Source: Amycolatopsis coloradensis (GTDB lineage: Bacteria > Actinomycetota > Actinomycetes > Mycobacteriales > Pseudonocardiaceae). Taken from it: 64,000 bases of DNA. The position numbers and the translations under genes are program-made. The stretch is taken from positions 56,849 to 120,848 of the forward strand of contig NZ_MQUQ01000014.1 in assembly GCF_001953865.1 (NCBI RefSeq). Reading direction: 5' to 3'. This document shows, in pieces, positions 41,981 through 46,448 of this stretch (positions within the stretch are counted from its first letter, which is position 1; each line of letters starts with the position of its first letter). The notes under the pieces were generated by a model. That model searched no databases. It was not told the origin of the DNA and saw nothing but the letters and a program-made list of their open reading frames with translations.

Positions 41981-44014
41981 GTGTCGAAGTTCCCGACCGT
42001 ATTGAAGCGGCTCGTCCTCGGACGTCCATTCCGGAGTGACCGCCTCTCGCATACGCTCCTGCCGAAGCGCATCGCGCTGCCGATTTTCGCGTCCGACGCG
42101 TTGTCGAGCGTCGCCTACGCGCCTGAGGAAATCTTTCTGACGCTCAGCGTCGCCGGCTTGTCCGCGTACGCGTTCGCGCCCTGGATCGGGGTCGCCGTCG
42201 CGGTCGTCATGCTGGTCGTCGTCGCGTCCTACCGGCAAAACGTGCACGCCTATCCCAGCGGCGGCGGTGACTACGAGGTCGCCAACACCAACCTTGGCGG
42301 CAAATTCGGGCTTACCGTGGCCAGCGCGCTGCTGGTCGACTACGTGCTCACGGTGGCGGTGTCGACGTCGTCCGGGGTGGCGAACATCGGCTCGGCGGTG
42401 CCGTGGGTGGCGCAGCACAAGGTGATCGCCGCGGTCGTCATCGTGGTCGTGCTGACCGCGTTGAATCTGCGCGGAGTTCGCGAATCGGGCAAAACCTTCG
42501 CGATTCCGACCTACGGGTTCATCATCGGCATCCTCGGCATGGTGATCTGGGGCCTGATCGAAGCGGCTTCCGGTGCCGACATGCGGGCCGAGAGCGCCGA
42601 TTTCGACCTGCACGAAGAAGCCTCTTTGACCGGTTTCGCGTTCTTCTTCCTGCTGCTGCGGACCTTCTCCTCCGGCGCGGCGGCGCTGACCGGGGTCGAG
42701 GCGATCAGCAACGGTGTCCCGGCGTTCCAGAAGCCGAAATCGAAGAACGCGGCGACCACCTTGCTGATGATGGGTGTGCTCGCGGTGACGATGCTGGTCG
42801 GCATCATCACGCTGGCGATCATCACCGACGTCAAATTCGCCGAGCACCCCGCGACGCAGCTCACCGGCGCTCCGGCGGGCTACGAGCAGAAGACGATCGT
42901 CGCGCAGATCGCGGCGGCGGTGTTCGCCGACTTCACGCCGGCGTTCTACTACATCTCCTTCGCCACCGGCATCATCCTGCTGCTGGCCGCGAACACCGCG
43001 TTCAACGGCTTCCCGGTGCTCGGCTCGATCCTCGCCCAGGACCGCTACCTTCCGCGTCAGCTGCACACCCGCGGTGACAGGCTGGCGTTCTCCAACGGCA
43101 TCCTGTTCCTCTCGGCCTTCGCGCTGGTGCTGATCATCGCGTTCGACGCCGAGGTCACGAAGCTCATCCAGCTTTACATCGTCGGGGTGTTCGTCTCCTT
43201 CACGATCAGCCAGGCCGGCATGATCCGGCACTGGAACCGCCTGCTGGCCAGGGAGACCGACCCGGCGGTGCGGCGGCGGATGCGGCGTTCGCAGACGGTC
43301 AACGCCGTCGGTCTCACCATGACCGGCACCGTGCTGATCATCGTGCTGATCACGAAGTTCCTGCTCGGCGCCTGGATCGCGATCGCGGCGATGGTGGCGA
43401 TCTACATCCTGATGACCGCGATCCGGAAGCATTACGACCGGGTCGCCGAGGAATTGCGCGAAATGGACCGGAAACCGGTCGTCCTGCCTTCGCGCAACCA
43501 CGCGATCGTCCTGATTTCGAAACTGCACCTGCCGACCCTGCGCGCGCTTTCCTACGCCAAGGCCGTGCGGCCCGATGTGCTCGAAGCCGTCACCGTGAAC
43601 GTCGACGACATGGAGACGCGCAAACTCGTCCAGGAATGGGACGACCACAATTTCAAGGTGCCGCTGAAGGTGATCGAGTCGCCGTATCGCGAGATCACGA
43701 AACCCGTGCTGGACTACGTGAAGCGCGTCCGCGGCGACAATCCGCGCAACGTGGTCACCGTGTTCATCCCGGAGTACGTCGTCGGGCACTGGTGGGAGCA
43801 GGTACTGCACAACCAGAGCGCGCTGCGGCTCAAGGGGCGCCTGCTGTTCCAGCCCGGCGTCATGGTGACCAGTGTGCCGTGGCAGCTCGAATCGTCGGAA
43901 AAGGCGATCAAACGCGACCGGAAGGCGCGTCCCGCGGCCGGTGACGTCCGGCGTGGATTCTCCCCCGTGGTCAAGCAGACCGAAAAGACGAAGGACAAGG
44001 AAAAATCAGAATGA
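41981..44014 (+). CDS. APC-superfamily permease, probable KimA-like potassium transporter
   Basis: 677-residue membrane protein with twelve predicted helices in the first ~470 residues and a soluble C-terminal domain (~480-650). KRIALPIFASDALSSVAYAPEEIF at residues 29-52 is the signature opening of KimA (YdaO)-type proteins, although annotation usually says amino acid permease. SGGGDYEVANTNLG and LTGVEAISNGVPAFQ mark helices 3 and 6. The C-terminal region (RNHAIVLISKLHLPTLRALSYAKAV) is UspA/nucleotide-binding-like. The tail is very basic. Counterpart of Rv2690c beside ceoB/ceoC, which supports potassium. Overlaps the methyltransferase start by 4 nt. Confidence 0.8.
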   Translation: MSKFPTVLKRLVLGRPFRSDRLSHTLLPKRIALPIFASDALSSVAYAPEEIFLTLSVAGLSAYAFAPWIGVAVAVVMLVVVASYRQNVHAYPSGGGDYEVANTNLGGKFGLTVASALLVDYVLTVAVSTSSGVANIGSAVPWVAQHKVIAAVVIVVVLTALNLRGVRESGKTFAIPTYGFIIGILGMVIWGLIEAASGADMRAESADFDLHEEASLTGFAFFFLLLRTFSSGAAALTGVEAISNGVPAFQKPKSKNAATTLLMMGVLAVTMLVGIITLAIITDVKFAEHPATQLTGAPAGYEQKTIVAQIAAAVFADFTPAFYYISFATGIILLLAANTAFNGFPVLGSILAQDRYLPRQLHTRGDRLAFSNGILFLSAFALVLIIAFDAEVTKLIQLYIVGVFVSFTISQAGMIRHWNRLLARETDPAVRRRMRRSQTVNAVGLTMTGTVLIIVLITKFLLGAWIAIAAMVAIYILMTAIRKHYDRVAEELREMDRKPVVLPSRNHAIVLISKLHLPTLRALSYAKAVRPDVLEAVTVNVDDMETRKLVQEWDDHNFKVPLKVIESPYREITKPVLDYVKRVRGDNPRNVVTVFIPEYVVGHWWEQVLHNQSALRLKGRLLFQPGVMVTSVPWQLESSEKAIKRDRKARPAAGDVRRGFSPVVKQTEKTKDKEKSE

Positions 44015-45216
44015 GTGTGGACGCGTCGACCGGTACGTGGCTCGGACGGACGATCGAGCTGGAGGTCGGCGCGGTGGCGCACGGCGGGCACTGCGTCGCG
44101 CGGGCGGAGGGGCGGGTCGTGTTCGTGCGGCACGCGCTGCCCGGCGAACGCGTCCTGGCCTCGGTCACCGAGGACAAGGGCGGCTCGTTCTGCCGCGCCG
44201 ACGCGATCGAGATCCTAGAGGAGTCACCGGAGCGGGTGAAGCCGCCGTGCCCGCTCGCGGCGCCGGGGGAGTGCGGCGGCTGCGACTGGCAGCACGCCAC
44301 CCCCGGGCACCAGCGTGAACTCAAGGCCGCCGTGGTCATGGAGCAGCTGAAGAGGATGGCCGGGATCGAGCGCGAGGTCGTCGTCGAAGCGCTGGAGGGC
44401 GGCTCGCTGGACTGGCGCAGCCGGGTCCGGCTCGTCGCGGGCAAGGACGGCCGCGCGGGTTTCCGGGCGCACCACAGTCACCGCGTGATCCCGATCGACG
44501 ACTGCCCGATCACCGTCCCCGGCGCGCTCGATGACGTCGTTTCGCGGAACTGGCGGCCCGGCAGCGAAATCGAGGTCACCAAGGACGGCGAGGGGCACGT
44601 GCATCTCCGTGACCTGTCGACGGTCCACGGGAAGACCAAGTCCCGGCAGCTGGCGGGCGGGCTCGCCGTCCAGCACGCGGCGGGCCGCGACTGGCGCCTG
44701 GACGCCCACGGTTTCTGGCAGGTCCACCCGGCCGCCGCGGACACCCTGGCCGCCGTCGTCGCCGAATGGGCCGAAGCCCCGCGCGACGGCGTGGCCTGGG
44801 ATCTGTACGCCGGTGTCGGCCTCTTCGCCTCCGTGCTCGCTTCGCAGGTCGGCCCGGGCGGGCGGGTCTTGGCCATTGAATCCGGCCGCCGCGCCGTGTC
44901 GGACGGTGAGGAGAACCTGGCCGACCTCCCCCAGGTCCGCTGGCGCTCCGGGCGCGTCGAGCATCTGCTGGCCGATGCCCCCAAACCCGTCGACGTCGTC
45001 GTCCTCGACCCGCCGCGCAAGGGCGCGGGCAAGGCCGTCGTCGAGTCGATCGTCGAGGGTTCGCCGGACCGGGTCGTCTACGTGGCGTGCGACCCGGCGG
45101 CACTGGCCCGCGACATCGCGCTGTTCGCGGAGCACGGGTATGGGCTCAGCGACCTGCGTGCTTTCGACGCTTTCCCGATGACACACCACGTCGAATGCGT
45201 TGCGTTGTTGCAATAA
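44011..45216 (+). CDS. TRAM-domain RNA (uracil-5)-methyltransferase, RumA/TrmA-like
   Basis: 401-residue SAM-dependent RNA methyltransferase. N-terminal TRAM domain (residues 10-70), iron-sulfur cluster cysteines C80, C88, C91 and C165 as in RumA, SAM motif DLYAGVGLFASVLA, then DPPRKG and the catalytic VACDPAALARD with the nucleophilic Cys. The target is probably a uridine in rRNA or tRNA; TRAM and Fe-S together favour rRNA. ATG 44011 overlaps the permease stop. Same position as Rv2689c. Confidence 0.93.
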   Translation: MSVDASTGTWLGRTIELEVGAVAHGGHCVARAEGRVVFVRHALPGERVLASVTEDKGGSFCRADAIEILEESPERVKPPCPLAAPGECGGCDWQHATPGHQRELKAAVVMEQLKRMAGIEREVVVEALEGGSLDWRSRVRLVAGKDGRAGFRAHHSHRVIPIDDCPITVPGALDDVVSRNWRPGSEIEVTKDGEGHVHLRDLSTVHGKTKSRQLAGGLAVQHAAGRDWRLDAHGFWQVHPAAADTLAAVVAEWAEAPRDGVAWDLYAGVGLFASVLASQVGPGGRVLAIESGRRAVSDGEENLADLPQVRWRSGRVEHLLADAPKPVDVVVLDPPRKGAGKAVVESIVEGSPDRVVYVACDPAALARDIALFAEHGYGLSDLRAFDAFPMTHHVECVALLQ

Positions 45217-45330
45217 CGGTGAATTCGTAGACCGTCGGAATGGCTGAGTCCCTTTTGACTTGTCCGGGTGCCGGGTGCTCGCTAACTTGAGTCTCGTTGT
45301 TTCCGAAAACGCGGAGAACGGGAACTCGCA

Positions 45331-45432
45331 GTGCGAATCACGAATTATTTGACGTCAGTTTGCGGCGATTGTGACGGTAAAGGCTGCGCCGGTTGCGACG
45401 GGCATGGCACGATCACCATCGTGGAGGACTGA
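45331..45432 (+). CDS. Small CxxCxGxG zinc-finger-like ORF, 33 aa
   Basis: GTG 45331 opens a 33-codon frame reading VRITNYLTSVCGDCDGKGC then AGCDGHGTITIVED, a double CxxCxGxG-type motif (C11, C14, C19, C22) as in the DnaJ zinc finger, in a protein of 33 residues. GGGA lies 8 nt upstream. The stop at 45432 is 4 nt before the GTG of the next gene, whose GGAGG ribosome site (45423-45427) lies inside this frame, so the two are coupled. Too short for routine gene finding; plausibly a real peptide. Confidence 0.6.
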   Translation: MRITNYLTSVCGDCDGKGCAGCDGHGTITIVED

Positions 45433-45436
45433 CCCA

Positions 45437-45793
45437 GTGCTCCCGTCAATGCTCCCTCCCGGGGTCACCGCGCAGGAAATCAGCTATCGGAACGGCCGGA
45501 AGCAGGTCATCTACACGGCGCCGTACCCGTCCGAAGGTCCGGTTCTCGTGCAGGACCTGCTGGGGCGGCAGGCGTGGGTGTTCATGTACGCCCACTTCGT
45601 CTTCACCTGGGCCGAAGGCGCGGTCCAGGTGCAGGTCAGTCACGGCACGTTGAGCGGGCCGAAGATGCCGCTGTGGCAAGGGGTCAGTATCCCCGGCTTC
45701 TGGTCTGGGCCCACATTGGCGAAATTCGGACGGGCGTGGGCGCTGGAGCAGATGTCCGGCAGGCGCGGTACTCCGGCCGTCATCACCGAGTGA
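45437..45793 (+). CDS. Hypothetical protein, 118 aa
   Basis: Not recognised. From GTG 45437 the protein is VLPSMLPPGVTAQEISYR with a strand-rich, aromatic middle (RQAWVFMYAHFVFTWAEGAVQVQVSHG). No signal peptide, membrane helix or catalytic motif. The start was set at 45437 by the GGAGG 9 nt upstream; ATG 45449 is the alternative. Coupled to the 33-aa CxxC ORF. Its 3' end overlaps the convergent GNAT gene by 11 nt. Confidence 0.7.
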   Translation: MLPSMLPPGVTAQEISYRNGRKQVIYTAPYPSEGPVLVQDLLGRQAWVFMYAHFVFTWAEGAVQVQVSHGTLSGPKMPLWQGVSIPGFWSGPTLAKFGRAWALEQMSGRRGTPAVITE

Positions 45794-46448
45794 TTCCGAG
45801 CACCGGCAGGCAGTCGTGGACGGCGACGAGTTCGATGTCGCCGCGCCGCCGCGCGGCCCACTGCTCGCGGGTCAGCCTCCATTGCTTGATCTCCGCCGGC
45901 TCACCGCGACGGGTGTCCCAGGAGACGCCGTTCGGCTCGTAACCCAGAGCTTGGGAGACGCGATTCGAGGCGTGATTGTCGAAGAAGGCGTCGCTGCCTG
46001 CTTCACTAGCTCCGAACCCGTCGAAAGCGAGATGCAGCACCGCCTGCCGCATTTCCTTGCCCAAACCGCTGCCCCGCAGATGCGGATCGAGCCAGGAGAA
46101 GGTGGTGACCGTTCCGAATGTGGCGAAGTCGGTGCCGATCAGATCCTGCATGCCCACCGGCTCGCCGTCGACGACCACGACGAAGTACAAACGCCAGTGG
46201 CTCGCGCTGACTCGGCCTCGGCCCAGCCACACCCCGCGTAGCCAGCGCCACTCGCGCTCCGGGCTGTCCTCGTAGAGGGAGGCCGGATCGTCGAAAGGCC
46301 AAGGAGGCTCCGTGACCACGCCCTTGCGGACCGTGGGGACCAAACGCTCCAGGAGTTCGTCCGTCGCGCCGAGTAAGGACAGCCGGGGTGTGTGCACCCG
46401 CACGTTTAACGGCGGATACGCGGACAAAGGCGAGGCTGTCGTCGGCAT
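45783..46448 (-). CDS. GNAT N-acetyltransferase
   Basis: 221-residue acetyltransferase of the RimJ/RimL type: TPRLSLLGATDELLERL opening, WRLYFVVVVDGEPVGMQDLIGTDFATFG strands, and DPHLRGSGLGKEMRQAVLHLAF (acetyl-CoA loop RGSGLG) plus NHASNRVSQALGYEPNGV (motif B). Substrate unknown; modification of protein N termini or antibiotics is usual for the subfamily. ATG at 46448. Single gene. Confidence 0.88.
   Translation of the reverse strand: MPTTASPLSAYPPLNVRVHTPRLSLLGATDELLERLVPTVRKGVVTEPPWPFDDPASLYEDSPEREWRWLRGVWLGRGRVSASHWRLYFVVVVDGEPVGMQDLIGTDFATFGTVTTFSWLDPHLRGSGLGKEMRQAVLHLAFDGFGASEAGSDAFFDNHASNRVSQALGYEPNGVSWDTRRGEPAEIKQWRLTREQWAARRRGDIELVAVHDCLPVLGITR

Follow-up and report, generated by a model that had tools for sequence, protein, structure and literature searches.

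The window considered here, a 64,000-nucleotide stretch of the 9.05 Mb genome of Amycolatopsis coloradensis (contig NZ_MQUQ01000014.1), contains between two longer genes a frame so short that one may ask whether it encodes a protein at all and, if so, with what that protein might act. The frame, here termed PEP, occupies positions 45331-45432 of the forward strand; as described in the original prediction, it runs for 33 codons from a GTG at 45331 to a TGA at 45430-45432, and its product, VRITNYLTSVCGDCDGKGCAGCDGHGTITIVED, carries two cysteine pairs with glycine spacing. These pairs, CGDC and CAGC, belong to two CxxCxGxG motifs that abut without an intervening loop, resulting in a C-x2-C-x4-C-x2-C peptide with a family core of about 30 residues, a length close to the lower limit of the usual gene callers. 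Upstream lies a gene for an RlmD/RumA-type 23S rRNA uracil-C5 methyltransferase (44011-45216, forward strand; TIGR00479 above its cut-off), and downstream, also on the forward strand, a gene with a GTG start for a protein of 118 residues (N118; 45437-45793). The GGAGG of N118 was correctly placed inside the PEP frame: it is found at 45423-45427, in the final codons V-E-D, nine nucleotides ahead of the N118 GTG at 45437, and four nucleotides separate the PEP stop from that GTG. A convergent GNAT acetyltransferase gene on the reverse strand (45783-46448), whose end overlaps that of N118, lies outside this module. PEP found no Pfam family up to an E-value of 10, nothing significant in NCBIfam (a weak Pus10 match, E 0.13) and five weak matches in PHROGs, the best of which (E 0.028) is to a family of unknown function; N118 found nothing in PHROGs, and PADLOC nothing for either. 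The structure model of PEP, built without metal, is poor (pLDDT 58).

Among 390 genomes of the family Pseudonocardiaceae, PEP and N118 are found together in 33, PEP only in six, N118 only in 14 and neither in 337, a co-occurrence with a Fisher P of 1e-30 that is uncorrected for kinship. The PEP profile matched 51 of the 390 at E <= 0.01, of which 39 were accepted, and N118 was found in 47 (a first search had found it in 16 of 60 genomes), the genome of the window being counted in the 51, the 47 and the 16. Of the N118-only genomes, one (L127) has a broken PEP and another (L142) a weak partial match (E 0.02) that lacks the four-cysteine frame. At the level of the order 10 of 397 genomes, own included, were positive, all within the family, and at the level of the class only the own genome of 345, for PEP and for N118 alike; both searches score the best first-look candidates only and may miss weak relatives. 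In a pattern scan of named species the 22 N118 loci belonged to Amycolatopsis, Streptoalloteichus, Longimycelium, Sciscionella or a Pseudonocardiales MAG, the latter three genera being assigned to Pseudonocardiaceae by NCBI. A mobile or phage origin was also looked for and was left unsupported by the plasmid, phage and viral-contig searches: an N118 relative (L062) matched none of the 72,556 plasmid and none of the 50,697 phage records, the peptide of the same locus matched no plasmid and had weak, short matches in six phage records (best E 0.2), and the viral contigs gave no confirmed match for PEP or N118. Sixty regions were read, 55 with N118 and five with PEP only; 18 of the 55 adjoin rlmD, and the RlmD C-terminus was found upstream in all 19 rlmD-linked loci.

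Examination of codon-level variation across these loci reveals that the frame evolves as a protein. In the 15 rlmD-linked copies of PEP, window included, pS is 0.39, pN 0.036 and pN/pS 0.09; leaving out the decaying copy L124, the values for the remaining 14 are 0.37, 0.023 and 0.06, and the variable sites over 27 codons number 4, 2 and 19 at codon positions 1, 2 and 3, respectively (hypergeometric P 1e-7). Furthermore, over 27 residues neither L113 nor L125 differs in protein sequence from the window's PEP, even though their genes show 10 and 14 synonymous differences, respectively, which indicates that the peptide is constrained in the window's own lineage too. Of the two genes PEP is the slower to evolve in this set of 14 genomes (pN/pS 0.06, versus 0.20 for N118), and in the four rlmD-linked genomes without PEP the constraint on N118 is similar (0.22), suggesting that N118 does not need PEP there. 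The cysteine pattern, which offers four candidate metal ligands, is intact in 42 of the 45 peptides compared, that of the window among them, a count that leans high because the peptides were collected with a profile rich in those cysteines, and from which the broken PEP of L127 had been removed beforehand; a cysteine has been lost in L124, L136 and L159. The original prediction had named unconserved cysteine codons, or frameshifts in relatives, as grounds for its rejection, and apart from these three copies and L127 both the codons and the frame have been maintained. In a 20-row sample the residues following the cysteine block are conserved equally to the cysteines themselves, with G22, T25 and I26 invariant and I24 and D29 nearly so. 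PEP is thus no chance ORF. Protein-level selection and the conserved cysteines support the earlier view of a stand-alone four-cysteine micro-protein, and we consider it almost certain that PEP is a translated, selected protein.

The cysteine-rich domain of DnaJ consists of four CxxCxGxG repeats that bind two zinc ions. PEP has two such motifs, one zinc site at most and no J domain, and thus falls outside the DnaJ/Hsp40 family; its DnaJ-likeness, remarked on from the outset, holds as a resemblance of motif but not as family kinship, for which a Pfam match is missing. Among sequences of solved structures the nearest to PEP lies in PheRS alpha (2rhq), a stretch with cysteine spacing equal to that of PEP (E 0.008, a weak match), but there the motif sits within a large enzyme whereas PEP is free-standing; the literature searched yielded no report of zinc at this motif of the Staphylococcus haemolyticus enzyme. 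BSD2 likewise shares CxxCxGxG motifs with PEP, the profile match being weak (E 0.88). A further parallel is anti-TRAP (RtpA) of Bacillus, which the accessible text of PMC2896485 describes as a protein of 53 residues with two zinc-binding CXXCXGXG motifs that requires zinc for its oligomers and its function and works by binding a regulator. Anti-TRAP and PEP are alike in having two CxxCxGxG motifs, but PEP is only about 30 residues long, its motifs abut without a loop and the C-terminal part is missing. The NCBIfam RtpA model scores a PEP relative (L062) at 15.3 bits (E 0.017) against a cut-off of 65, leaving it outside that family, and no RtpA match is among those reported for the window's PEP. 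Free-standing proteins of comparable size are also found in Haloferax, where, according to the part of PMC10716476 available, HVO_0758 and HVO_2753 have fewer than 70 residues and two C(P)XCG motifs, HVO_0758 has been shown to be a zinc finger that needs all four cysteines for folding, and most of 16 gene deletions of archaeal C(P)XCG micro-proteins gave phenotypes. These proteins are archaeal and have C(P)XCG in place of CxxCxGxG.

Given this motif, zinc binding by PEP is very probable, an iron-sulphur cluster being the alternative. A related reading makes PEP a redox or metal sensor, in which the cysteines would hold an iron-sulphur cluster or a labile zinc, and oxidation or loss of the metal would alter contact with N118 or a regulator. 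Four nearly invariant cysteines within a very short chain would suit such a sensor, and cysteine-based regulators are common in actinobacteria, but a structural zinc site is favoured by the spacing of the CxxCxGxG motifs and by the similarity, weak as it is, to PheRS alpha and BSD2, and we regard the sensor as unlikely, though it is the best of the rival explanations considered here.

The downstream gene had been called unknown, and N118 indeed matches no family in Pfam or NCBIfam. Its structure model is confident (pLDDT 89.6) and predicts seven β-strands followed by a C-terminal helix. The best match among sequences of solved structures has an E-value of 1.4, Foldseek found nothing for the model in PDB or BFVD at E <= 0.001, and VIA-align gave a Z of at most 3.7 and no convincing relative; the missing structural match is no proof of a new fold. 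A terminator-like site (45574-45595) lies inside the gene. In a tree of N118 the 19 rlmD-linked rows group together (SH-aLRT 98, by a quick method); this tree is unrooted and therefore does not distinguish loss of the regulator described below in the rlmD-linked lineage from its gain elsewhere. In six regulator-linked loci of Amycolatopsis (L123, L127, L130, L134, L136 and L138) an ATG for N118 lies within PEP, or within what is left of it, but in a different frame; it is preceded by GGAAG or AAGGG and is retained in L127 despite the broken PEP. A TTG start for N118 in this clade was considered and dropped, all six loci having that ATG in frame with N118.

Contextual analysis of the 37 N118 loci away from rlmD links the pair to a family of regulators. 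In 22 of them a gene for an XRE-DUF5753 protein of the Scr1/WhiJ type lies no more than 2.2 kb from N118, in 18 cases on the same strand, and the other 15 have no such gene in range; within the same distance DUF6879 is found in 19, S64, a protein of 64-72 residues, in 15, and DUF397 in two. The parts of this cassette were recognised through their similarity to example proteins, and a Pfam check placed two XRE examples in PF13560/PF19054 and two DUF6879 examples in PF21806, above cut-off, while finding no match for the S64, N118 and PEP examples. The S64 copies at L061:2296-2490 and L069:1381-1575, each with two cysteines, match no Pfam or NCBIfam family. A full order on one strand of S64, at least one copy of DUF6879, XRE-DUF5753, PEP and N118 is seen in 10 loci, including L127 with its broken PEP. 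Among seven further DUF6879 regions, six hold S64, DUF6879 and XRE genes and none was found to hold PEP or N118; as groups of this kind exist without the pair, PEP-N118 appears to be an add-on to a broader cassette. In such groups lacking the pair (L177-L182) the genes that follow XRE-DUF5753 differ by locus, as judged by eye. Elsewhere, at L147 and L153, frames resembling NUDIX hydrolases (by eye) precede PEP, and these PEP-N118 copies come without an XRE gene.

The window itself has no XRE-DUF5753 gene next door, nor do the 18 rlmD-linked relatives over a distance of roughly 4.5 kb, contig ends permitting. Its genome contains nine DUF5753 sites, none on the contig of the window, and no match to DUF6879, which the same search finds in four of eight listed genomes. 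These observations suggest that the PEP-N118 of the window is an orphan relative of the module and, along with the 15 non-rlmD loci and the 18 rlmD-linked relatives that have no XRE-DUF5753 gene in range, indicate that the pair can persist without XRE-DUF5753 and DUF6879. The original prediction had seen the gene pair but missed its link to XRE-DUF5753 and DUF6879. It had also proposed translational coupling of PEP to the 118-residue gene, and in the window's lineage this is well founded, the GGAGG being present at the PEP end in 13 of 14 rlmD-linked relatives with PEP as well as in the window. As a general rule it fails: PEP lies downstream of N118 in four loci and occurs without N118 in five regions (six genomes), 14 genomes have N118 only, and PEP and N118 seem to overlap in six loci. 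The five solo regions (L166-L170) come from a single genus and hold similar copies, and the gene downstream varies between genomes.

Small partner genes beside XRE-DUF5753 regulators are known from Streptomyces. According to the accessible sections of PMC10364602, these include Scr1-Scr2 and the WhiJ and BldB-like pairs, S. coelicolor has 15 XRE-DUF5753 regulators with DUF397 partners, and pairs of this kind influence both antibiotic production and development. The PEP-N118 loci are comparable in the proximity of XRE-DUF5753 to the majority of the non-rlmD copies noted above. In contrast, neither N118 nor PEP matches Pfam as a DUF397 partner would: N118 is longer than the DUF397 proteins in the available text of PMC10364602 and has seven predicted strands, DUF397 being described, in the available portion of PMC7159879, as four strands and a helix. 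The cassette differs from the DUF397 pairs also in containing DUF6879, S64 and a four-cysteine peptide. In light of these connections PEP, which is usually beside N118 and often near the regulator, probably belongs to a gene-control module as a small partner that binds zinc. We give about even chances to the full reading that it is an unannotated zinc-knuckle micro-protein which serves as partner or cargo of XRE-DUF5753 cassettes and has been orphaned in the window's lineage, and the narrower claim that it works in partnership with N118, the XRE-DUF5753 regulator or both could equally go either way.

A toxin-antitoxin pair, in which one of the two small proteins PEP and N118 would be toxic and the other, or the XRE protein, would neutralise it, appears somewhat less probable than the sensor. 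A role of this kind was proposed earlier for XRE-DUF397 pairs (PMC10364602 and PMC7159879, in the parts of each available), and small adjacent genes, sometimes overlapping, near an XRE gene and patchy in distribution (N118 being found in only 47 of the 390 genomes) would fit it. Yet the six genomes with PEP only and the 14 with N118 only are hard to square with a toxin that depends on a single antitoxin, in 15 genomes the rlmD-linked pair has stayed at one site with no XRE gene beside it, and mobility has no support in the plasmid and viral-contig searches or in the weak, short phage matches. Moreover, Scr1/Scr2, an XRE-DUF397 pair, regulates antibiotic production and is not toxin-antitoxin-like in its behaviour, going by the extracts of PMC10364602.

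Among the rlmD-linked copies the GTG start of PEP is peculiar to the window. The ATG of the relatives aligns three codons inside the window's frame, at 45340-45342 on the forward strand, where the window has ACG, suggesting that GTG 45331 is a replacement start. The claim that this GTG has a plausible ribosome site can be upheld in part: the codon is usable, but the site, GGGA at 45320-45323, seven nucleotides ahead, is weak and the relatives start at ATG. With a GTG and no strong ribosome site, translation in the window could be poor. Further upstream is a promoter-like element, TTGTCC-17-TAACTT (45260-45288, forward strand), which with a spacer of 17 or 18 is present in 16 of the 19 rlmD-linked loci, window included, and is absent elsewhere in the regions of the 18 relatives; a stricter sigma-70 scan reported no site ahead of PEP, and it is by its conservation that we call the element promoter-like. 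The leader between it and PEP differs in length and content between species.

In regulator-linked loci the start signals are of another kind. A TAnnnT stands 6-8 nucleotides before the start (tested range 4-10) in nine of 13 regulator-linked PEPs ahead of N118, as compared to one of 21 other PEPs and 69 of 3428 same-strand ATGs of those regions; L127 and L154 are left out of this count, and the regulator of L155 and L159 is on the opposite strand. Four of the 13 have no TAnnnT in range, and three of these four (L134, L136 and L138) are also without a Shine-Dalgarno-like pattern. In all five solo copies TAnnnT lies exactly 6 nucleotides before the ATG, and each of the four PEPs downstream of N118 (L140, L141, L144 and L146) has its own GGAGG or GGGAG. 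The start signals of PEP, as predicted from these motifs, are thus leaderless-type or Shine-Dalgarno depending on context. In Streptomyces and mycobacteria roughly 20 to 25% of genes have leaderless messages, according to the accessible text of a review (PMC9031893). Together with selection as a separate protein, an own start signal is found for the PEP family, that of the window being weak. REARRANGEMENTS speak for PEP being a protein.

The same signals bear on whether PEP is merely a leader peptide that sets the translation of N118, for example as a cysteine-responsive attenuator, which we consider very improbable. The polycysteine leaderless short ORFs of mycobacteria, which code for cysteine ahead of an operon, are reportedly attenuators of this type. 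PEP is reminiscent of them in its four cysteine codons, in often looking leaderless and in lying mostly close ahead of N118, whose ribosome site it holds in the window's lineage; it differs from them in being conserved as a protein, reordered and found solo. The reversed and solo copies in particular, in which PEP is not upstream of a gene that it could regulate, largely refute the leader as a general role. In addition, the residues past the cysteine block are conserved like the cysteines (20-row sample), the cysteine codons are non-consecutive, N118 belongs to no family, cysteine-related or other, and the length ahead of PEP varies between species. What speaks most for a leader is that the last eight PEP codons (45406-45429) show synonymous variation at one of eight, versus 18 of 19 earlier codons, in the 14 rlmD-linked copies, on account of which part of PEP may have a second, nucleotide-level role; the N118 ribosome site accounts only for the very end of this stretch, and codon bias may be responsible for the rest. 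Finally, that the frame arose by chance in an untranslated leader and was kept only for the N118 ribosome site, which its 3' end does hold in the rlmD-linked copies, is refuted by codon-level selection (the third-position pattern and pN/pS), by the conservation of solo and reversed copies and by start signals fitted to context, and has practically no likelihood.

Together, PEP is under protein-level selection, is linked to N118 and to regulators and has start signals that fit each context, and from this we infer its translation, zinc binding, contact partner and regulatory role, the weights given above to translation, zinc and partnership being matters of judgement. We propose that the two abutting CxxC knuckles of the approximately 30-residue PEP would bind one zinc ion and that its conserved I-T-I tail would form a short strand. 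As a pair, PEP and N118 would serve actinobacterial XRE-DUF5753 cassettes, in which DUF6879 and S64 are also found, as partner or cargo. In the full cassette PEP, lying past the regulator gene, would be the first gene of a separate transcript that is often leaderless, and zinc would keep PEP folded for contact with N118 and/or the regulator, much as anti-TRAP contacts TRAP. In the window's lineage the regulator half would be missing, with PEP-N118 placed behind rlmD and the conserved promoter-like element and the N118 ribosome site lying within PEP. As a bolder and decidedly more tentative extension, PEP-N118 might be effectors of a new type for Scr1/WhiJ-type regulators, in place of DUF397, with the leaderless knuckle switching N118 or the regulator as zinc or the redox state changes.

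Small zinc fingers that stand alone are already known as a kind, as are partners of XRE-DUF5753 regulators. What appears to be new here, judging by the database searches, is the PEP and N118 families, for which searches of Pfam, NCBIfam, PHROGs and PADLOC gave nothing significant; a literature search of partial coverage, from which unpublished status does not follow, found nothing on the PEP family or on DUF6879. If the proposal is true, PEP with its roughly 30 residues would be among the smallest free-standing metal-binding proteins, and N118 would be a new all-β-plus-helix protein. In the rlmD-linked copies it is the 30-residue PEP that is the more constrained gene of the pair. For the XRE-DUF5753 regulators, the two genes would provide a second candidate set of partners, one member of which is a four-cysteine micro-protein.
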